From Bacillota bacterium (GTDB lineage: Bacteria > Bacillota > Clostridia > Ch29): a stretch of DNA of 64,000 nt. The notes beneath the pieces were generated by a model. That model was given only the letters and a program-made list of their open reading frames with translations, was not told where the DNA came from and did not search any database. The DNA lies in NCBI GenBank assembly GCA_013540605.1, contig JABVCK010000004.1, positions 1 through 64,000 on the forward strand. The letters are read 5' to 3'. How positions within the stretch are numbered: position 1 is the stretch's first letter; every line of letters begins with the position of its first letter. The position numbers and the translations under genes were made by a program. Of the stretch, positions 54,534-63,793 are shown in pieces.

Positions 54534-55661
54534 TTGGCTGACTTTGATTTGAAGGTTTTGGATAGAATCCTGTCTGAAACCATACAAAAAATCCAGGATG
54601 GTAAAAGTGAAGTGGATGAAATCAGTAATCAGGTTAACGATGAATGCGATAAGATAAAAAAAGACCTGGAAGAGATCAGCAAAAAGGTTAGAAGTATCAT
54701 TGAAAAGGTTGACAGCTTCCAGTATAAGGAACAGCTTGCCCGGTATGAGCTGTTCACCGTTAATAGGGATTATCAACTGAATACCGAAGATGATATGAAA
54801 AAGGCCTATGATACTGCCATGGAGCTTCAGGTAAAATACCGTGAGCTGCAAAATGAGGAAAAGCTCTTAAGGCAGGAAAGGGATAGACTGGCCAGAAGAT
54901 ATAGAAAGCTTTCCAATACCGCTGAGAGGGCCAAAAACCTGTCGGCCCAGATTACGGAAGTTATAGACTACCTGGCCCAGAGCCTGGAGGGTATGTCGAG
55001 CTACGTCAAGAAGCTGAAAAGTAAAGATGATATGGTTATGACAATAATTAAAGCCCAGGAAGAGGAAAGAAAATCAATAGCAAGGGAAATACATGATGGT
55101 CCCGCACAGGCTATTTCAAATGTGGTAATCCGGGCTGAAATATGCAGGCAGCTGGGTATAGACAGCCCAGAGCTGCTGGAGGAGCTTGAGGGATTGGAAA
55201 GAACAGCCAACAACAGCCTTGAAGATATAAGGAGAATAATATTTAACCTCAGGCCTATGCATCTTGACGACCTTGGCTTAATCTATGCGGTAAAAAAATA
55301 CTGTGAAGAGTTTCAAAAGCAGACCGGCATTGATGTTGTAATCGAATACACAGGAAATGATAAACGTTTTGATGGCACCCTTGAAATCTCAATGTACAGG
55401 ATTATTCAGGAAATACTGAACAATGCCAGGAAACACTCCAGGGCAAGCAGCATCATCGTCAGCTTTAATAATACGCCCCTGGTACTAAACGTTAATATAA
55501 AGGATGATGGTATCGGTTTTATTCCCGAGCAGGTCGACTACACAAAGCACTTTGGACTGAAAGGAATCCGAGAAAGGGTTAACCTTATGGATGGCAGTAT
55601 GGAAATAAAATCCGCTGCAGGCAAGGGCACTGAAATTATTATAGAAGTTCCTTTCAAGTAA
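54534..55661 (+). CDS. DegS-type sensor histidine kinase
   Basis: The 375-residue protein has no membrane segment. The first 165 residues form a long coiled coil. A HisKA_3 dimerisation domain carries the phospho-accepting histidine in SIAREIHDGPAQAISNVVIR (about 190), and a HATPase domain has IIQEILNNARKHSRAS (N box) and DDGIGFIPE and GLKGIRERV (G boxes). It belongs to the NarL-type kinase group, like DegS. The start is TTG behind ggggaggaattttc. Its partner regulator follows 13 bp later. Its position before the tad genes suggests control of the pilus. Confidence 0.93.
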   Translation: MADFDLKVLDRILSETIQKIQDGKSEVDEISNQVNDECDKIKKDLEEISKKVRSIIEKVDSFQYKEQLARYELFTVNRDYQLNTEDDMKKAYDTAMELQVKYRELQNEEKLLRQERDRLARRYRKLSNTAERAKNLSAQITEVIDYLAQSLEGMSSYVKKLKSKDDMVMTIIKAQEEERKSIAREIHDGPAQAISNVVIRAEICRQLGIDSPELLEELEGLERTANNSLEDIRRIIFNLRPMHLDDLGLIYAVKKYCEEFQKQTGIDVVIEYTGNDKRFDGTLEISMYRIIQEILNNARKHSRASSIIVSFNNTPLVLNVNIKDDGIGFIPEQVDYTKHFGLKGIRERVNLMDGSMEIKSAAGKGTEIIIEVPFK

Positions 55662-55674
55662 AAGGAGGGGAATT

Positions 55675-56319
55675 ATGAGCTCGATAAGATTGATGGTTGT
55701 GGATGACCATCCAATTGTAAGGCAAGGTCTTATAAAACTGATAGAGATGAATGACCGATTCAAGGTAATAGCCGAGGCATCGAACGGTTTAGAGGCAATA
55801 AGAATGTCTTCAAAGTACGCACCGGATATAATCCTGATGGATATCAATATGCCTGACATGGACGGCATCGAGGCCTGCAGGGAAATAACCGGACAAAATG
55901 CTGATGCAAAGGTTATTGCTTTAACCGTATGCGAAGAAATCGATAAAATCACAGAAGCCCTTGCTGCAGGTGCAAAGGGCTATATTCTAAAGAATACAAA
56001 CCTGGAAAACCTGACCAGGATAATCAGGGAAGTTTATGAGGGCAAAGCTTATATTGACCCTTCGGTTACCACAGGCTTGATTGACCAGTATACCCGGTTT
56101 GCCCAACAGCTCAAGGAGCATAACCCCTGTCCCCTATCGGACAGGGAAGTACAGGTCCTGAAACTGGTATCAAAGGGCCGGACAAACAAGGAGATTGCAG
56201 GGGAATTGGTCATAAGCGAAAAAACAGTAAAAAACCATGTTACCAATATTCTCAGCAAGCTGGACGCGAATGACAGGACAGAGGCAAGCGTTATCGCAAT
56301 GAAAAAAGGATACATATAG
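55675..56319 (+). CDS. DegU-type LuxR/NarL-family response regulator
   Basis: The 214-residue protein has a receiver domain with MVVDDHPIVRQGLIKLIE, the phospho-acceptor aspartate in DIILMDINMPDMDG (about 55) and the lysine in AAGAKGYILKNTNLEN. The C-terminal LuxR helix-turn-helix reads LSDREVQVLKLVSKGRTNKE and then ISEKTVKNHVTNILSKLDAN. It is phosphorylated by the kinase upstream and acts on unknown promoters, the flp/tad operon being a candidate. A terminator follows. Confidence 0.94.
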   Translation: MSSIRLMVVDDHPIVRQGLIKLIEMNDRFKVIAEASNGLEAIRMSSKYAPDIILMDINMPDMDGIEACREITGQNADAKVIALTVCEEIDKITEALAAGAKGYILKNTNLENLTRIIREVYEGKAYIDPSVTTGLIDQYTRFAQQLKEHNPCPLSDREVQVLKLVSKGRTNKEIAGELVISEKTVKNHVTNILSKLDANDRTEASVIAMKKGYI

Positions 56320-56326
56320 GTATTCG

Positions 56327-56363
56327 GGGACCCGGGCTGATATAGGCCGGGTCCCATGTTTTA
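56327..56363 (+). terminator. Rho-independent terminator after the degU-like gene
   Basis: A gggacccgg / ccgggtccc stem is followed by atgttttatt. It separates the two-component genes from the pilus operon. Confidence 0.8.
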
Positions 56364-56494
56364 TTCTGGAATATCTGCCTATTAAGAAATAAGCACAATG
56401 CTATGCATAAATGCTCCATAAGGCCGATGTGAGTTTTTCCCCTGAATGATATTATCTATACACAAGAACTCAAATGAAGGGAGTGCATGAAAAC

Positions 56495-56665
56495 ATGCTG
56501 AGCATGATAAAGAATTTTCTAAGCGATGAAAGAGGACAGGCTTCAACCGAATATGGAGTTATCATTGGAGTCATTGCCGTAGGTATTATAGCTGCCGCAA
56601 TCATTTTCAGGGATAAGATTATAAATGTATTCACAAATGCAGGCAATGAATTGGACGGCATTTAG
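56495..56665 (+). CDS. Flp/Fap-type type IVb pilin
   Basis: The short protein (about 56 residues) has a basic leader, FLSDERGQASTEYGVIIGVI, in which the prepilin cleavage Gly and the later Glu-Tyr pair of Flp pilins are present. A hydrophobic helix follows (AVGIIAAAIIFRDKI). It is the major pilus subunit. The start at 56495 has gggag 11 bases upstream; an ATG seven codons earlier has none. A terminator directly after it should keep pilin levels above those of the assembly proteins. Confidence 0.92.
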   Translation: MLSMIKNFLSDERGQASTEYGVIIGVIAVGIIAAAIIFRDKIINVFTNAGNELDGI

Positions 56666-56684
56666 TCTGTACAAGGGATTTTTT

Positions 56685-56717
56685 GTCCTGCTGATATAAA
56701 AGGCAGGACTTTTTTTT
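56685..56717 (+). terminator. Terminator/attenuator between flp and cpaA
   Basis: A gtcctgc / gcaggac stem with an 11-nt loop is followed by eight T. It lies inside the pilus operon just after flp and likely gives partial read-through into cpaA and beyond. Confidence 0.85.
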
Positions 56718-56741
56718 AGAAAAAACCGGGGAGGGATTTTC

Positions 56742-57242
56742 ATGAAGGCCATGTTTCTTCTTCTGATACTGCTGTTTTGCACAATCACAGACATTAAAGA
56801 AAGAAGAATATACAATGAAGTACTGCTGATCGGCATTATACTTGCTCTTATACTAAACCTCCACGAAAGCCGAACCACGGGATTGCTTGAGATGATTAAA
56901 GGGATGGCCATAGGGACTTCGGTATTCTTTATACCTTACCTGCTTGGGTGGCTGGGTGCCGGAGACGCTAAACTGACCGGCATCATTGGCGCTTTCGAAG
57001 GCTGGAGATTTGTATTGTATTGTACGCTTTCAATCGCTGTAGCCGGTGGATTGATCTCTGTTTTCCTTCTTATCAGGGATAGGAAGACCGGTTCACTGTT
57101 CCAGAACCTGCACATGCTTTTCCTCACAAAATCACCCCACTACCTTCATGACAAAGAGCAGCAGCACACTTTCCCCTATGCAGCAGCTATCCTTATAGGT
57201 ACGGGCATTACTTTAGTGCTGCAGGTGATCGGCTATGTTTAA
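56742..57242 (+). CDS. Prepilin peptidase, A24 family (CpaA/TadV)
   Basis: The 166-residue membrane protein has the two catalytic aspartates of A24 peptidases: one in FCTITDIKERRIYNE after the first helix, and one in LGWLGAGDAKLTGIIGAF (GxGD motif). Four membrane segments are visible. It processes the Flp pilin and TadE/TadG-like pseudopilins. The start follows ggggagggattttc; the end overlaps tadE by 8 bp. Confidence 0.92.
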   Translation: MKAMFLLLILLFCTITDIKERRIYNEVLLIGIILALILNLHESRTTGLLEMIKGMAIGTSVFFIPYLLGWLGAGDAKLTGIIGAFEGWRFVLYCTLSIAVAGGLISVFLLIRDRKTGSLFQNLHMLFLTKSPHYLHDKEQQHTFPYAAAILIGTGITLVLQVIGYV

Positions 57243-57627
57243 AGGTTTTTGGAAAAGGAATGACGGCCAGGCCCTAGTGGAATTCTCTATCTCACTGCCG
57301 GTACTGCTCCTTCTGATTGTTGGAATACTGGAATTCTCAAAGCTCGGCGGCGCCCTGCTGATGGTTAATTACGGGGCAAGGGAAGGGGCAAGGATTGCCT
57401 CCCTCGGCGCCAGTGACAGCGCAATAATACAGAAGATTAAGCAGTCAACCGTTCTGCTTGATGACAGCAGGATGGTAATAAATATTTCCCCTGATACATT
57501 CAGGACAAGCAATGAAAACGTGACAATTACGGTGCAGTATCCGGTTGATATCAACATCCCCATTATTAATAAGATAATAGGCACTCCAAAGTGGGTCAGG
57601 GGTGAACTGACCATGAGGGTCGAATAG
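57235..57627 (+). CDS. TadE-like pseudopilin
   Basis: The 130-residue protein begins with a short basic leader and NDGQALVEFSISLPVLLLLI, in which a Glu five residues into the helix is the TadE-type feature, followed by GAREGARIASLGA. The C-terminal half is a small extracytoplasmic beta-rich domain. It is a minor pilin-like component of the Flp pilus. It overlaps cpaA by 8 bp. Confidence 0.9.
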   Translation: MFKGFWKRNDGQALVEFSISLPVLLLLIVGILEFSKLGGALLMVNYGAREGARIASLGASDSAIIQKIKQSTVLLDDSRMVINISPDTFRTSNENVTITVQYPVDINIPIINKIIGTPKWVRGELTMRVE

Positions 57628-57643
57628 AATGGAGGTGCTATCC

Positions 57644-58567
57644 GTGATTAGTTTTTTAAAAAAAGAAAACGGGGCAGTCCTGATGCTGTTTGCCATCCTG
57701 CTGCCTGTCCTTCTTGGCTGTACTGCAATTGTCGTGGATTTCGGCAGCCAGTATGCATGTAAAGTCAGGTTGGACAACATCGCCCAAGCCGCTGCCCTGG
57801 CAGCCGCGCAGGACCTTCAGGCAGACGCCGGCCTCGCAGAGGATAAGGCCTATGAATACCTTAACCTGAACGGCATTGAGGACCAGCACGCGCAGGTACA
57901 GGTATCCGGTTATGACAACAGCGTTGAGGTTACCATTCAAAGAGACGTCGATTTTTTCTTTGGGCGGATACTTGGGCTCGAAGACAGGAGGATTTCTTCA
58001 AAGGCAAAAGCAATAAGCACAGGCCTGACTTCCCTAAGTGGCGCCGCTCCCCTTGGAATACTCTCCCAGGACTTTGTCTATGGCCAGCTGTATAAGCTCA
58101 AGTGCGGGGCCCCCCCCGAATTCGGTTCAGGCAATTTCGGTGCTCTGAGGTTAGGGGGTTCAGGCTCTTCAGTTTATGAAGAAAATCTCAAATACGGGTA
58201 CCAGGGAAAAATTGAAGTAGGAGATATTATAGAAACAAAGAGCGGGAACATATCAGGCCCAACCCAGCGGGCTATAAGTTACAGGTTTTCCCAGGACAGC
58301 AGGGTTCCCCCCAATACAATTGACGACTACGACAGAAACGCCCCCCAGATAATATATATTCCTGTGGTTGAGCCTTACCAGACAAATGATAACCACGTAT
58401 ATTCCGTGAGGGTTCTGGGGTTTGCCGCATTCTTCGTAGCCGGGATACCCGGCAGCGGTGATGATAGCGAGATAGAAGGCTATTTTATCAGAACCGTACA
58501 CAGCGGAACTGGCTCAGAAGGCCAGCCGGACTATGGTCTGACAACTTCAAAACTGGTTAATCCATAA
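57644..58567 (+). CDS. TadG-like pilus assembly protein
   Basis: The protein of about 307 residues begins FLKKENGAVLMLFAILLPVL, a TadE/TadG-type hydrophobic N-terminus, then VDFGSQYACKVRLDNIAQAA and ALAAAQDLQADAGL, the usual TadG block of alanine-rich helices. A long extracytoplasmic region follows; no von Willebrand A domain is clear. GTG at 57644 behind ggaggtgctatcc is the better start than the ATG at 57629, which lies in the ribosome-binding site. Confidence 0.85.
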   Translation: MISFLKKENGAVLMLFAILLPVLLGCTAIVVDFGSQYACKVRLDNIAQAAALAAAQDLQADAGLAEDKAYEYLNLNGIEDQHAQVQVSGYDNSVEVTIQRDVDFFFGRILGLEDRRISSKAKAISTGLTSLSGAAPLGILSQDFVYGQLYKLKCGAPPEFGSGNFGALRLGGSGSSVYEENLKYGYQGKIEVGDIIETKSGNISGPTQRAISYRFSQDSRVPPNTIDDYDRNAPQIIYIPVVEPYQTNDNHVYSVRVLGFAAFFVAGIPGSGDDSEIEGYFIRTVHSGTGSEGQPDYGLTTSKLVNP

Positions 58568-58579
58568 GGGGGCATTTCC

Positions 58580-59329
58580 TTGAATAGAAAAATAATCGTC
58601 TGGACAGTAATATTGACGCTGGTAACATCGACAGCCATAATATACTATCTTGAAAGCTATAAGAAGTCCATTGACAGCAGGGAATACATCCAGGTCGTGG
58701 TCACAAAACAGACCATCCCAAACAGGACAAAGATCACCCACGATATGGTCGAGCTTGCAACCAAGGATAAAGAATACGTTCATCCAAACACATTTACCGA
58801 TATAAAAAGTGTTGTGGGTACAATTTCCACAATTACCATAGCAAAGGGCGACGAGGTATTAAAAGATTACACAGCCGGTCCGAAAGATATAACAAAGGGA
58901 TTGGCGTTCATTGTACCGGAAGATATGCGGGCGATAACCGTTCCGGTAAACGAAGTGTCAGGGCTGAACTACCTGGTACGGCCGGGGGATATGGTTGACG
59001 TAATCGTTACTTTAAACCTGGACGAAAAACTCAGGGACGGGACCACAAGGTCCTTCCTGCAGAGCAACTATGTGCTCCAAAAGGTATTCGTACTGGCAAC
59101 AAACGATAATCTTGGCTATGATAATGGTTTTAAAATCCAGGACAGCGGTAGCAGTTCGAAAAAAAATACGGTTACCCTTGCGGTATACCCTGAGCATGCC
59201 CTGCCCCTGGCCCTGGCAAGCGACTACGGCACGATACGCCTTCTGTTGAGGAATCCGGCTGACAACGACCTGACTTCTATAAAACCCTTTCTCCTTGAAA
59301 ACTTTATTCGAAAGGATGAAGACCGATGA
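58580..59329 (+). CDS. Flp pilus assembly protein CpaB/RcpC
   Basis: The 249-residue protein has one N-terminal membrane helix (IIVWTVILTLVTSTAIIYYL), a SAF-like domain (VVVTKQTIPNRTKITHDMVE, IAKGDEVLKDYTAGPKD) and the RcpC/CpaB domain (MRAITVPVNEVSGLNYLVRP, GDMVDVIVTLN, VTLAVYPEHALPLALASDYG). It is thought to act in the cell-wall part of the pilus machine. The start is TTG after aagggggcatttcc. It overlaps tadZ by 4 bp. Confidence 0.9.
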   Translation: MNRKIIVWTVILTLVTSTAIIYYLESYKKSIDSREYIQVVVTKQTIPNRTKITHDMVELATKDKEYVHPNTFTDIKSVVGTISTITIAKGDEVLKDYTAGPKDITKGLAFIVPEDMRAITVPVNEVSGLNYLVRPGDMVDVIVTLNLDEKLRDGTTRSFLQSNYVLQKVFVLATNDNLGYDNGFKIQDSGSSSKKNTVTLAVYPEHALPLALASDYGTIRLLLRNPADNDLTSIKPFLLENFIRKDEDR

Positions 59330-60495
59330 GTATAAAGGTCCTGGTAGTTGATGACGTAATTGAAACCTGCAATAATATATCAAAACTCCTTTCCTTTGAT
59401 GAAGAGATTGAAGTCATCGGCAGCGCGTATAACGGGAAAGAGGCATTGAACTTCCTGGAAAAATCCAGGCCGGATATAATCCTGATGGACATCAACATGC
59501 CGGTTATGGACGGTATAGAAGCATCGGAAAAGATTTCGGTCCGGTACCCGGAAATATCAATAATCATGATTACTGTCCAAGGAGAGCTGGAGTATATAAA
59601 GAAGGCTATGGTAGCCGGTGCAAGGGATTATTTAGTTAAACCCTTCACCGCGGACCAGCTGGTAAGCTCAGTGAAGAAGATCCATCAGCTTGACAGCAGG
59701 AAAAACAAGAAAAAAACTCCCGGCCCAACCGCCAAACCAAAGGTAATAACAATATACAGTCCAAAGGGCGGTATCGGGACCACAACAATCGCTGTGAACC
59801 TCGCTGTAATGATGCACCAGCTAACCGAGAAAAAGGTTGTGCTGCTTGACCTGGACCTTCAGTCAAGCGATATTGGGGTTATGCTCGACCTGAAACTGAA
59901 CAAAACAATAAACAATGTCATACAGAACATTGGTTACCTTGATGCAGACCTGCTCAATGAATACCTGTACAAACACAATTCAGGAATAGATGTGCTGCTT
60001 GCTCCTCCCGAACCTCAATACGCTGACCTGGTAACACCTGAATACGTTGAAAGCATAATAAAAGTACTGAAACAATTGTATGACTATATAATTATCGATA
60101 CCTCATGTATTCTCAATACATTTAATATAGACATGATGAACATGTCGGACGAAATACTGTTGATTCTCGCCCTTGAACTGACAACGGTCCGCAGAATAAA
60201 GAAGGTGCTTGAAATACTGAATGAATTTGGCATATCAGGCAGCATAAGGTATGTGTTGAACAGATCGTCGGATGAAATCGGCCTTAACCGCAGGGAAGTG
60301 GAAAAACACCTTGGTATTAAGATTGATAACCATATCTCCTCAAACGGCAAGGTAACAGTAAGCGCACTGAATAAAGGGACTCCCTTTGTTATAAGCAACC
60401 ACACAGCGAAGATAAGCGATGATATTAAGAAGCTGGCGCTGAACTGTGCGGAAGAACTGCCGGAGAAAAGAAAGCGCAGCCTGTTTTCATTCTGA
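59326..60495 (+). CDS. TadZ/CpaE-type protein with complete receiver domain
   Basis: The 389-residue protein fuses a receiver domain (1-120: VLVVDDVIETCNNI, phospho-acceptor region DIILMDINMPVMDG, AGARDYLVKPFTADQL) to a MinD/ParA-like ATPase. The deviant Walker A is in YSPKGGIGTTTIAVNLAVMM, and later blocks include VVLLDLDLQSSDIGVMLDLK and DYIIIDTSCILN. TadZ localises the pilus machine at the membrane. The receiver keeps the DD pair, acceptor Asp and Lys, unlike many TadZ proteins with degenerate domains, so it may be phosphorylated. Confidence 0.92.
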   Translation: MSIKVLVVDDVIETCNNISKLLSFDEEIEVIGSAYNGKEALNFLEKSRPDIILMDINMPVMDGIEASEKISVRYPEISIIMITVQGELEYIKKAMVAGARDYLVKPFTADQLVSSVKKIHQLDSRKNKKKTPGPTAKPKVITIYSPKGGIGTTTIAVNLAVMMHQLTEKKVVLLDLDLQSSDIGVMLDLKLNKTINNVIQNIGYLDADLLNEYLYKHNSGIDVLLAPPEPQYADLVTPEYVESIIKVLKQLYDYIIIDTSCILNTFNIDMMNMSDEILLILALELTTVRRIKKVLEILNEFGISGSIRYVLNRSSDEIGLNRREVEKHLGIKIDNHISSNGKVTVSALNKGTPFVISNHTAKISDDIKKLALNCAEELPEKRKRSLFSF

Positions 60496-60522: not shown

Positions 60523-61875
60523 ATGTCTCTCTTAGAAATGCTGGAAAACCAAAAAAAGAAGAATGAAGAAATCAAGGTGGGCGATACCGTTAGGCTTGAG
60601 GCTAATGACAGATATGAGGATTTAAAGGTTACGATTCATGGACTGCTTATAAAAAAACTGGAGCAGGAGAACAAGATTTCCAGACTCGATGAATATGAGC
60701 TTCAAAAAGTAACCAGAAGCTTCACTCTGGAATATATTCAGAACAACTCACCCCATATATCCCAAAACGACAGGAATGAGATAGTCGGCTGTCTGATTGA
60801 TGAAATATGCGGATATGGCCCCATTACTGAATTCCTCAAACAAACGGATATTGAAGAAATCATGGTAAACGGTCCCTACCAGATATACGTAGAAAAGAAG
60901 GGTAAAGGCAACGTCCTCACCGGTAAGAAATTCCGGGATAAGGAACACGTTTTGCACATTATCGAGAAGATTATCAGTCCGTTAGGCAAGAGGGTGGATG
61001 AAACCAAACCTTACACAAACGCGCGGCTTCCCGATGGCTCCCGTGTCCACATCATTATTCCCCCTATTGCTCCCCACGGCCCGTATGTGTCCATAAGAAA
61101 GTTCGAGACGGACCCTTTCACCATCAATGATTTAATCAGCTTCAATACTCTGACTCCTGAGATGGCGAGGTTTCTCGAAGCCTGTGTCAAAGCCCGTATA
61201 AACATAATGGTTTCAGGCGGGACCTCTTCGGGCAAGACCACTGTCCTGAACTGCCTCACTTCGTTTATTAACAGGGATGAGAGGATACTGGTCATAGAAG
61301 ATTCCATGGAGCTTCAGCCAAGGGGAAACCACGTACTCAGGCTGGAAGCAAGGGACGCAAATATTGAGGGTAAGGGCGAATTCTCCATAAGACAGGCGGT
61401 AATAGAAGCTCTGCGTATGAACCCGACAAGGCTGATCATCGGGGAGATACGGGGCTCTGAGTGCTTTGATTTCCTGCGTGCAAGCAACACCGGACACCGC
61501 GGCAGTATCAGCACAGCCCACGCAAATTCCCCCCGGGACCTCCTGTATGCACTGGAGACAATGACAATGATGGCAAATATAGATATTCCCCTCATTGCCA
61601 TTAGAAGATATATAGCAAGTACCCTTGACCTGATAATCCAGCAGCAGCATATGGAGGATAACACGAGAAAAACGGTCAGCATTACGGAGGTGTGCGGTAT
61701 GGAGGGCGACGTAATACAGCTCCAGGAGTTGTTCAGGTATGAACAGGAAGGCGTCGATCACAACGGCAAGGTTAAAGGAAGGTTTGTCTGCACAGGGGTT
61801 AGACCTGCGTTTATGAACCGGATAAAGGCCTCCGGTGTGCCGCTTCCCGACAGCATCTTCTCACAGTTAACATAA
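60523..61875 (+). CDS. TadA/CpaF-type pilus secretion ATPase
   Basis: The 450-residue hexameric ATPase has an N-terminal helical domain, EIMVNGPYQIYVEKKGKG, Walker A VSGGTSSGKTTVLNCL (about 230-245), the Asp box VIEDSMELQ, Walker B LIIGEIRGSECFDFLRA and the His box TGHRGSISTAHANSPRDLL. It powers pilus extension, and probably retraction as in other Tad systems. ATG follows ggaggggttatag. It is cytoplasmic and works with TadB/TadC next to it. Confidence 0.95.
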   Translation: MSLLEMLENQKKKNEEIKVGDTVRLEANDRYEDLKVTIHGLLIKKLEQENKISRLDEYELQKVTRSFTLEYIQNNSPHISQNDRNEIVGCLIDEICGYGPITEFLKQTDIEEIMVNGPYQIYVEKKGKGNVLTGKKFRDKEHVLHIIEKIISPLGKRVDETKPYTNARLPDGSRVHIIIPPIAPHGPYVSIRKFETDPFTINDLISFNTLTPEMARFLEACVKARINIMVSGGTSSGKTTVLNCLTSFINRDERILVIEDSMELQPRGNHVLRLEARDANIEGKGEFSIRQAVIEALRMNPTRLIIGEIRGSECFDFLRASNTGHRGSISTAHANSPRDLLYALETMTMMANIDIPLIAIRRYIASTLDLIIQQQHMEDNTRKTVSITEVCGMEGDVIQLQELFRYEQEGVDHNGKVKGRFVCTGVRPAFMNRIKASGVPLPDSIFSQLT

Positions 61876-61909
61876 TCATTCCTGTTTCTGCATGGAGGTG
61901 AGTATAATA

Positions 61910-62866
61910 ATGCAGCTGTTGACCGCGCTGTTGATTCTTTCAACTATATGTTTTTACTACTTTTTACTGCTGAAGACCCTGTTCAAAAAAAATATTCGGA
62001 AAAACATGAGAATTGACAAATACCTTATAGGCAGCCGTTCTAAAGATGAAAGGGAGCTACCGGTTGTCTCAATCAAATCCCTGGCCAGAAAGCTGGGAAA
62101 AATCCTGATTAAGGAAAACAGGTCTGCCCGGCTTGAACTGCAGCTGATGCGGGCGGGTATCCTCCTGAAAAGTGAGGAGTTCATCCTTGTGATTTATTTC
62201 TCTACCCTTATACCACCGGTTATCATATATCTTATCACAGGAAACATTTTTGCAGCTGCAATTACCTCGATAATAGGCTGCCTAACGCCAAAGCTGGCTC
62301 TGAATGCTGCAATCAAAAGAAGGTTGGACAAGTTCAATCTACAGCTTCCGGATGCGATAAACATAATAATATATTCCCTAAAGTCCGGCTTGAGTTTGAT
62401 GCAGGCAATGGAAAGCGTGGCAAATGAAATGGCAGACCCAATAAGGAGCGAATTTGAAAGGACTGTGAAGGAAATAACCGTTCTGAGCAGGCGAAAAGAG
62501 GATGCCCTGGAAAATATGAACAAACGGGTTAACAGCGACGACCTTGACCTGGTAGTTACGGCGGTTATAATCCAGTCCCAGGTCGGCGGCAATCTTGCGG
62601 AGATACTTGAAAATATAGTTGAAACGGTCAGGGACAGGATAAAAATAAAGGGAGAAATACGCGCCCTTACTGCCCAGGGCAGGATGTCCGGCATAATAGT
62701 GGCTTCGGTTCCCGTATTTGTTGGCGCGGTTATTCTCTTTATCGACCCAACCTATTTTGAACCCTTTATTAAATATCCACTGGGCTGGCTTTTGATCGGG
62801 TACTCAATCGTTTCAGAGGCCCTGGGCTTCATTTTTATAAAACAGATAATGAGCATCGATTTTTAG
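61910..62866 (+). CDS. TadB-type pilus platform protein
   Basis: The protein of about 318 residues has an N-terminal membrane helix and a T2SSF domain with FNLQLPDAINIIIYSLKSGL, SLMQAMESVANEMADPIRSE and ITVLSRRKEDALENMNKRVN. Several further helices follow, including IIVASVPVFVGAVILFI. It is an inner-membrane platform subunit. The ATG at 61910 is nine bases after ggaggtg; an upstream ATG at 61892 overlaps the ribosome-binding site. Confidence 0.92.
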   Translation: MQLLTALLILSTICFYYFLLLKTLFKKNIRKNMRIDKYLIGSRSKDERELPVVSIKSLARKLGKILIKENRSARLELQLMRAGILLKSEEFILVIYFSTLIPPVIIYLITGNIFAAAITSIIGCLTPKLALNAAIKRRLDKFNLQLPDAINIIIYSLKSGLSLMQAMESVANEMADPIRSEFERTVKEITVLSRRKEDALENMNKRVNSDDLDLVVTAVIIQSQVGGNLAEILENIVETVRDRIKIKGEIRALTAQGRMSGIIVASVPVFVGAVILFIDPTYFEPFIKYPLGWLLIGYSIVSEALGFIFIKQIMSIDF

Positions 62867-62884: not shown

Positions 62885-63793
62885 ATGCCATACATTTACC
62901 TTTTAGTACCCCTCTCGTTGTTCTTCATCTTCTATATAACCGTACAATCGATAGGCAAGACGCGGAGCCGCAGCAGCAACCGCATTACAAAGTATATCAA
63001 GCATAAAGAAAAAACTGCCTATGACCTGGAGATGAACAGGTCATTGTCCGAAAGGGTAATACTGCCTGTATACAGGAAACTCTCCAATGCCATATCCAGG
63101 ATGGTGCCCCGCAACAGGCTGGATACTCTGACTTTAAAGCTTGACCGTGGGGGCCTCAAGATAAGCCCGCAGGAGTTTCTGACCGTCCATTTGCTTGTAA
63201 TGGCTGTCATTCCCTCCCTTACAGCATCAATCCTGTACTGGTCCGACTATAACACCGGTGATATTGTCATGATATTTATCCTTCTGGCGGCAGCAGGCTA
63301 CTTACTCCCAAAATACTGGCTAAGCTCGAAAGTCAGCAAGAGAAAGCGCCGGGTCCGAAGAGAGCTGCCCGGATTAATTGACCTTCTTACCGTAAGCATG
63401 GAAGCCGGTTTAAGCTTTGATATGGCTTTGGCAAAGATTATATCCAAATCCAGGGGATTTCTTATAGAAGAATTGGATCTGGCTTTAAACAAGATAAGAA
63501 GGGGTGTACCCCGGCGGGATGCTTTAAAGGAAATGGCTCAGAAAATGGACGTGGATGAGCTTACAAACTTTATTGGAACTATACTGCAAGCAGAAAAACT
63601 GGGTATAAGCATAAGCAATATCCTCAGGGTACAAGCCGGCCAGATGCGGGAAGTTAAAAAACAATGGGCGAAGGAGAAAGGCGGTAAGGCGGCGGTTAAA
63701 ATTATACTCCCGCTGGTAATATTTATTCTCCCGGTGATTTTTATTATCCTGCTGGGACCATCAATAATGAATTTAAATGAAGTATTCAAATAA
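62885..63793 (+). CDS. TadC-type pilus platform protein
   Basis: The 302-residue protein has an N-terminal helix, a T2SSF domain (VRRELPGLIDLLTVSMEAGL, SFDMALAKIISKSRGFLIEE, EMAQKMDVDELTNFIGTILQ, AEKLGISISNILRVQAGQM) and a C-terminal pair of helices (ILPLVIFILPVIFIILLGPS). It forms the membrane platform with TadB. It lies 18 bp after tadB with its own ribosome-binding site. Confidence 0.92.
   Translation: MPYIYLLVPLSLFFIFYITVQSIGKTRSRSSNRITKYIKHKEKTAYDLEMNRSLSERVILPVYRKLSNAISRMVPRNRLDTLTLKLDRGGLKISPQEFLTVHLLVMAVIPSLTASILYWSDYNTGDIVMIFILLAAAGYLLPKYWLSSKVSKRKRRVRRELPGLIDLLTVSMEAGLSFDMALAKIISKSRGFLIEELDLALNKIRRGVPRRDALKEMAQKMDVDELTNFIGTILQAEKLGISISNILRVQAGQMREVKKQWAKEKGGKAAVKIILPLVIFILPVIFIILLGPSIMNLNEVFK

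Follow-up and report, generated by a model that had tools for sequence, protein, structure and literature searches.

HisKA_3 kinases usually have NarL-type regulators as their partners, and a single kinase may serve more than one receiver, as is the case for CheA, which has two (CheY and CheB), one of them on an enzyme. For TadZ, the receiver solved in 2012 by Xu is said to have a degenerate active site. In Caulobacter, a model from tomography places dimers of CpaE in a ring around the CpaF motor, has them move on piliation, and suggests an interaction between receiver (REC) domains (PMC13170226); TadZ has also been described as polar early in pilus biogenesis (PMC6668835). The locus described herein lies within a stretch of 64,000 nt from a Bacillota bacterium (assembly GCA_013540605.1, contig JABVCK010000004.1, positions 1 to 64,000; hereafter the window), and combines a DegS/DegU-type pair with the genes for a Tad pilus. 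An earlier note on this DNA had delimited positions 54534–60495 as the region of interest, had placed the kinase and its regulator just upstream of the pilus operon, and had suggested that this or another kinase might phosphorylate TadZ. The limits are exact, being the TTG start of degS and the end of tadZ, and the pair does lie directly 5′ of the operon, as flp and tadV come after degU. From the comparisons presented below, it appears probable that the kinase is branched, such that one DegS would have two outputs, i.e. DegU for transcription and TadZ for the pilus machine.

The degS gene (54534–55661, + strand) encodes a 375 aa cytoplasmic kinase with all three of the domains that define DegS, namely the PF05384 input domain (128 bits in Pfam), HisKA_3 and HATPase_c, and, judged from sequence only, it has no membrane segment. 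The predicted phospho-acceptor, His187, is invariant in 20 aligned DegS proteins, and a histidine is present in 68 of 68 clusters. Adjoining it is degU (55675–56319, + strand), the 214 aa product of which has the REC and GerE (Pfam) domains of a NarL/LuxR-class regulator, with D10, D11, D56, T84 and K106. The product of tadZ (59326–60495, + strand) consists of a receiver (residues 3–121; Pfam REC, 105 bits), a flexible linker and a MinD/ParA-type ATPase (residues 139–376; Pfam AAA_31), an arrangement that, together with its position beside cpaB and tadA, identifies it as TadZ/CpaE. Its receiver domain (59332–59688, + strand) harbours D9, D10, D55, T83 and K105, and the triplet for Asp55, the predicted phospho-acceptor, falls at 59488–59490 (+ strand) when counted along the reading frame. 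The claim that TadZ retains its key receiver residues, fused to an ATPase, is therefore upheld; the active site is complete rather than degenerate (‘atypical’), and by residue set (acidic pair, acceptor Asp, Thr/Ser and Lys) this is a canonical receiver of the phosphorylatable type. D9, D10, D55 and K105 are also invariant in 26 aligned TadZ proteins, including that of the window, in a set biased by having been partly found via a phosphorylation-site pattern. An AlphaFold2 model (mean pLDDT 87.9) displays receiver, low-confidence linker (approximately residues 128–134) and ATPase. In Foldseek, both of its domains align with 3fkq of Eubacterium rectale (384 columns), and the receiver matches that of phosphorylated Spo0A (1qmp) at 1.2 Å over 120 columns. 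Residues and domains reveal an intact H-box in the kinase DegS and complete receivers in DegU and TadZ, and the three genes recur together, the degS/degU/tad arrangement being found in many other families.

Receiver state and kinase linkage across tad loci

A profile built from 26 TadZ proteins was run on 398 genomes of the phylum, and matched in 186 at E ≤ 1e-40. Amongst the matches listed, in order of score and with weaker ones included, 138 regions were picked by hand at approximately one per genus and, with the addition of G002 and G020, gave 140 regions; together with 29 pattern-derived loci and the window these yielded 171 distinct TadZ proteins. The pattern-derived loci are biased towards intact receivers because the search patterns included the phosphorylation site. 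A total of 122 loci, with TadA adjoining and at least 6 kb of upstream sequence, were scored, whilst 49 TadZ proteins (31 intact, 18 degenerate) were dropped for having no TadA within 4.5 kb or less than 6 kb upstream. Herein, ‘DegS-type’ refers to a kinase core recognized by a purpose-built hidden Markov model.

Receivers were intact in 88 of the 122 loci and degenerate in 34. In 72 of the intact loci and one of the degenerate loci, the DNA upstream encodes a DegS-type kinase on the same strand. A PF05384 search of 62 genomes, covering the loci that have no upstream pair, gave matches in 41, and in 10 further intact loci DegS was found just downstream of tadC, two of these on the opposite strand, as confirmed on fetched DNA. 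The survey of receiver residues in clostridial TadZ proteins that had been proposed for this locus thus ends with a DegS-type kinase linked in 82 of 88 intact loci (six without) versus 1 of 34 degenerate loci (33 without). The association holds with the pair downstream of tadC, and therefore one fixed, inherited operon is an insufficient explanation for it. DNA further downstream was retrieved solely where an intact locus had no upstream kinase; at degenerate loci, linkage on that side was assessed by where PF05384 matches lie, such that a DegS-type kinase without this domain could be missed. Upon exclusion of the pattern-derived loci and the window (leaving 108), intact receivers are linked in 68 cases and unlinked in six, and degenerate receivers in one and 33, respectively. 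Amongst the 82 intact and linked loci, 75 have a DegS input domain scoring at least 40 bits (68 with DegU, seven without). The sole degenerate and linked locus, L239, has a 608 aa kinase that does not possess the DegS input domain, in a genome with no PF05384 match. Genomes with degenerate receivers often have DegS, and as far as contigs allow no PF05384 match adjoins a degenerate tad locus. In G002, which belongs to the family of the window, the TadZ receiver is degenerate and unrelated-looking genes lie upstream of tad; DegSU is at the end of another short contig, meaning that linkage to tad is possible there.

Raw Fisher values (1e-22 for Bacillota, 2e-20 without pattern-derived loci, and 0.005 for the Chloroflexota sample described below) were rejected as proof, because loci share ancestry and such values overstate the case. 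With regard to independence, 11 of 61 families hold both receiver states, and in nine of these the intact receivers are linked and the degenerate ones unlinked; in the remaining two (f89 and f62) neither state is linked, and they are uninformative. Three genomes (G424, G105 and G173) have two tad loci each and present the intact versus degenerate contrast within one genome. In a tree of TadA with 120 rows, a minimum of nine changes is needed for receiver state and of 10 for kinase linkage; pairs contrary to the association average 0.0, with one occurring in 1 of 200 pairings. L156 and L279 were left out of this tree and of a second one built from TadA and the TadZ ATPase, from which L262, L272 and L281 were also omitted. 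In family f62, L230 is intact and unlinked, its tree neighbour L231 is missing one acidic residue, and L236, L243 and L245 are degraded further, which looks like receiver decay in progress.

In Chloroflexota, 40 places picked by hand amongst the matches listed, plus the pattern-derived L055, provided 36 TadZ proteins with TadA adjoining. A HisKA_3-type kinase is linked in 15 of 27 intact loci (L055 included) versus none of nine degenerate loci, two of which have a NarL-type regulator without a kinase. Of seven genomes searched for the DegS input domain, two gave a match, and these are the genomes of Bacillota loci (L034 and L045).

Constraint on the receiver follows the same division. Mean column identity in kinase-linked, intact TadZ proteins is 0.56 for the receiver versus 0.42 for the ATPase, and in degenerate proteins 0.22 versus 0.34. 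That intact residues are a chance leftover was considered and rejected, as conservation of the receiver exceeds that of the ATPase in linked proteins, with the reverse in degenerate ones. Besides the catalytic residues, conserved only in the linked, intact group are columns 14, 15 and 21 of alpha1, which is the kinase-docking helix of receivers, as well as the stretch 83–90 (S/T-V/I-Q-G-E-x-E-Y). As a weak line of support, distances of the DegS DHp domain across 68 clusters follow those of the TadZ receiver (partial correlation 0.37) almost as closely as those of the DegU receiver (0.43). Residue co-evolution, which is thin at an effective 39 sequences, gives higher scores for docking-face columns (p 0.009 for TadZ and 0.010 for the DegU control); of the top 30 co-varying pairs, eight fall on this face for TadZ (5.3 expected) and six for DegU (4.8 expected). 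Both tests lean towards a DegS–TadZ relationship, without clean separation from controls.

Outside of the receiver, the Walker A motif of the window TadZ (59764–59787, residues 147–154) reads KGGIGTTT, with Thr in place of the P-loop Lys in the window, L032 and L033; amongst the 82 kinase-linked TadZ proteins, this residue is Lys in 70 and Arg in nine. ATP handling may, to go by this substitution, be altered in the window TadZ despite its intact receiver.

Clusters without DegU or without a pilus motor

Seven clusters combine DegS and an intact TadZ receiver with no linked DegU: L145, L147 (f58), L168, L180, L202 (f85), L282 and L288 (f60). DegU-type matches in the corresponding genomes are on other contigs, far away, or absent. 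The retention of DegS without DegU would be unexpected if DegS served DegU alone. In two genomes, G376 (a single contig, 99% complete, with L202 as its locus) and G174 (f85), the DegS of the tad cluster is the only HisKA_3 kinase found; the DegU profile matches no protein of either genome over its full length at E ≤ 1e-20, in a search that used this profile and GerE and was not a full REC census. In both, the receiver scoring best against the DegU profile is TadZ (of five and six matches in all, respectively), and their GerE matches do not coincide with DegU-profile receiver matches. G436 has three other NarL-type regulators, each adjoining a HisKA_3 kinase of its own. In G439 (L054/L154), the DegU-like protein is present but has lost its acceptor Asp and its Lys, with a REC score of only 21 bits; a DegS-type kinase (without the input domain) is intact there, as is the TadZ receiver. 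The two f60 loci have a further protein between tadC and degS (L282:5528-7165 and L288:5307-6650, − strand), which in L282 carries HAMP and a weak sCache match and could be a sensor that feeds DegS.

The receiver is also retained where no pilus motor was found. At L276, DegS is followed by a 140 aa TadZ-type receiver, with neither DegU nor ATPase, whilst L277 and L278 have DegS, DegU and a TadZ-type receiver of 133 or 131 aa, again without ATPase; L278 has, by eye, a Flp-like gene as well. L033, a close relative (TadZ 74% identical), keeps DegS, DegU, Flp, TadV, TadE and TadZ (L033:6809-11170), and no tadG, cpaB or tadABC was found beside these genes. L211 keeps only DegS, DegU and TadZ (L211:5014-9197), with no Tad motor or platform gene found. 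TadA was not detected at E ≤ 1e-20 in any of the five genomes of these loci, of which G170 (L276) is only 78% complete, and was matched in both positive controls, i.e. the genome of the window and G376. The TadZ receiver thus stays with DegS where the pilus machine does not.

Two other arrangements were seen. In L033, the gene that follows TadZ lies on the opposite strand and, by eye, resembles aroA, and at L224:3209-4156 (− strand) a TadZ-type receiver is fused to an RcpC/CpaB domain and adjoins an ordinary TadZ.

A probable branched kinase and its alternatives

The preferred reading, that of a branched kinase, can be set out as follows. DegS would autophosphorylate on His187 and pass the phosphate to Asp56 of DegU, which would control transcription, probably that of flp-tad; it would also pass phosphate to Asp55 of TadZ. 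Phosphorylated TadZ may then alter contacts between receivers, and with them the clustering of TadZ dimers about the TadA motor, which would determine when, and perhaps where, pili extend. A CpaE/TadZ ring of the kind modelled in Caulobacter would lend itself to switching by REC contacts that depend on phosphorylation. In lineages in which DegS became unlinked from the tad locus, the receiver would be free to decay towards the ‘atypical’ form. With respect to the earlier suggestion, the part linking a kinase to TadZ gains comparative support from the association with intact receivers, the clusters without DegU and the loci without a motor, and the part invoking another kinase loses ground, as the neighbouring DegS appears to be the better candidate.

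A number of observations weigh against this reading. Six intact TadZ proteins have no linked kinase; of these, L156 ends at a contig edge, and the genomes of the other five have DegS elsewhere. Similarly, 12 of 27 intact Chloroflexota proteins have no linked HisKA_3-type kinase, and no other kinase was seen at these 12 loci in a scan by crude motif only. In G101 and in G319, an intact TadZ and a degenerate one occur within one genome, and neither is linked. On supported branches of the TadA tree, an average of 5.3–5.4 out of seven independent pairs are concordant, the rest being without difference (median p 0.06, range 0.03–0.25), and the tree of TadA and TadZ ATPase averages 3.7–4.3 concordant pairs and 0 contrary (median p 0.125). 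The direction of change is uniform, and the phylogeny-corrected association of DegS and TadZ is borderline because independent changes are few. Position 15, mostly Arg in linked proteins, is Cys in the window, and in the distance test values of 0.28 and 0.31 were obtained for two of the five negative controls, with the TadZ receiver exceeding the best negative in only 60% of subsamples. The receiver of TadZ ends in K-P-F, and its best match amongst solved sequences is Spo0A, not a NarL-type regulator. Finally, DegU is encoded elsewhere in f60 genomes and may remain a partner of DegS in them, and in G097 one NarL-type regulator, with no adjoining HisKA_3 kinase, could serve DegS.

Of the alternatives, the one that survives best is that DegS/DegU controls tad transcription only, with the TadZ receiver phosphorylated by another kinase or by acetyl phosphate, and with co-occurrence due to descent from a single regulated kind of tad locus and to loss of both features together. 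This is in keeping with the small number of independent events on the trees, with the customary pairing of HisKA_3 kinases and NarL-type regulators, and with the five genomes that have an intact TadZ and keep DegS only elsewhere. It nonetheless seems unlikely, as it leaves unexplained a DegS with no DegU in the cluster, or with no DegU-type regulator found in the genome, the dead DegU receiver of G439, the presence of DegS next to a whole TadZ, or to the receiver alone, in genomes in which TadA was not found, and the conservation of alpha1 in the linked group. Less probable again is a role for the TadZ receiver as phosphate sink or feedback sensor, draining DegS or phosphorylated DegU, by which assembly state would report to transcription, from machine to regulator. 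In its favour are the receiver-only genes of L277 and L278, which adjoin DegS and DegU, and the complete TadZ next to DegSU in L033 and L211, all in genomes with no TadA found; against it, neither L276 nor the DegU-less clusters contain a linked DegU that could be buffered, and most loci have the receiver as part of the same protein as the assembly ATPase. That the TadZ residues are conserved purely for metal binding or receiver–receiver packing, without phosphorylation, is highly improbable. In its favour, the FrzS receiver is described as controlling polar localization without an acceptor Asp, and REC–REC contacts are proposed for the Caulobacter machine (PMC13170226); against it, such conservation would not lead one to expect that receivers are so closely tied to a kinase gene, or that the acceptor is lost from loci in which this gene is unlinked.

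Should the branched kinase be correct, many clostridial TadZ proteins would be live receivers tied to DegS (82 of 122 loci fit), and pilus extension could be switched post-translationally by the kinase that also sets transcription. Control of a surface pilus would in this way act on the pilus machine directly as well as on gene expression, and dead TadZ receivers would be a derived state following loss of the kinase. A broader proposal, put forward tentatively and with slightly less than even confidence, is that DegS–DegU–TadZ is an old three-part phosphorylation module in which a pilus-assembly ATPase serves directly as the output of a response regulator; the sole evident receiver left in some lineages would be TadZ, and elsewhere the module, or a bare receiver, would outlive the pilus, so that TadZ may signal without one. 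The branched reading would also open a directly testable route to the activation of Tad motors, and it points to genomes without DegU, in which there is little ambiguity as to the partner of DegS.

The pilus operon and comparison with described systems

From 54534 onwards, the genes of the window run in a single direction on the + strand, in the order degS-degU-flp-tadV-tadE-tadG-like-cpaB-tadZ-tadA-tadB-tadC, and comprise a Tad pilus gene set (Flp, TadV, TadE/G, CpaB, TadZ, TadA, TadB and TadC). The Flp pilin precursor (56495–56665) was identified by eye from a remembered motif, with its start taken as the ATG after AAGGGAG; the open reading frame list has it begin at 56474. Following this are the prepilin peptidase tadV (56742–57242, PF01478), the TadE-like pseudopilin tadE (57235–57627, PF07811), a TadG-like gene (57629–58567, PF13400, Tad) and cpaB (CpaB/RcpC, 58580–59329, PF16976, with TIGR03177 above cut-off). 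Beyond tadZ lie the gene for the TadA (CpaF) motor ATPase (tadA, 60523–61875, T2SSE, by profile match) and those for the platform proteins (T2SSF, PF00482) TadB (tadB, 61892–62866) and TadC (tadC, 62885–63793). Between degU and flp, a GC-rich inverted repeat was spotted by eye at approximately 56327–56356 (GGGACCCGG...CCGGGTCCC); a terminator scan of the + strand of this gap found none, and did not flag the repeat. Outside of the window, the same genome harbours a second DegS with an adjoining DegU-type regulator (G000:C11:27857-29626), a possible source of cross-talk.

No report of DegS acting on TadZ, or of a TadZ with a live receiver, was found amongst the papers listed in searches of open-access literature (titles and the beginnings of abstracts). 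The component families are known; the DegS–DegU–TadZ circuit, as put together here from sequence comparison, appears to be a novel variation on known types.

The window TadZ resembles that of E. rectale (3fkq) and Caulobacter CpaE in having a receiver-like domain fused to a MinD/ParA ATPase within a tad locus. It differs from the solved protein, the receiver of which is described as atypical and would thus not be expected to accept phosphate, in possessing all catalytic residues, and in that the receiver is more conserved than the ATPase amongst its kinase-linked relatives. A similar likeness is seen with TsfV of T7SSf, a TadZ-like receiver on a secretion-associated AAA+ ATPase, although TsfV is called atypical and the excerpt of that work mentions no kinase link. 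The pair itself is like DegS–DegU of B. subtilis, i.e. a PF05384-bearing DegS kinase with a NarL-type regulator, but is linked to a pilus operon and, putatively, to a second receiver that does not bind DNA. In its use of one kinase for two receivers the proposed circuit would be akin to CheA with CheY and CheB, from which it differs in the class of kinase and in its outputs, namely transcription and a pilus-assembly ATPase.

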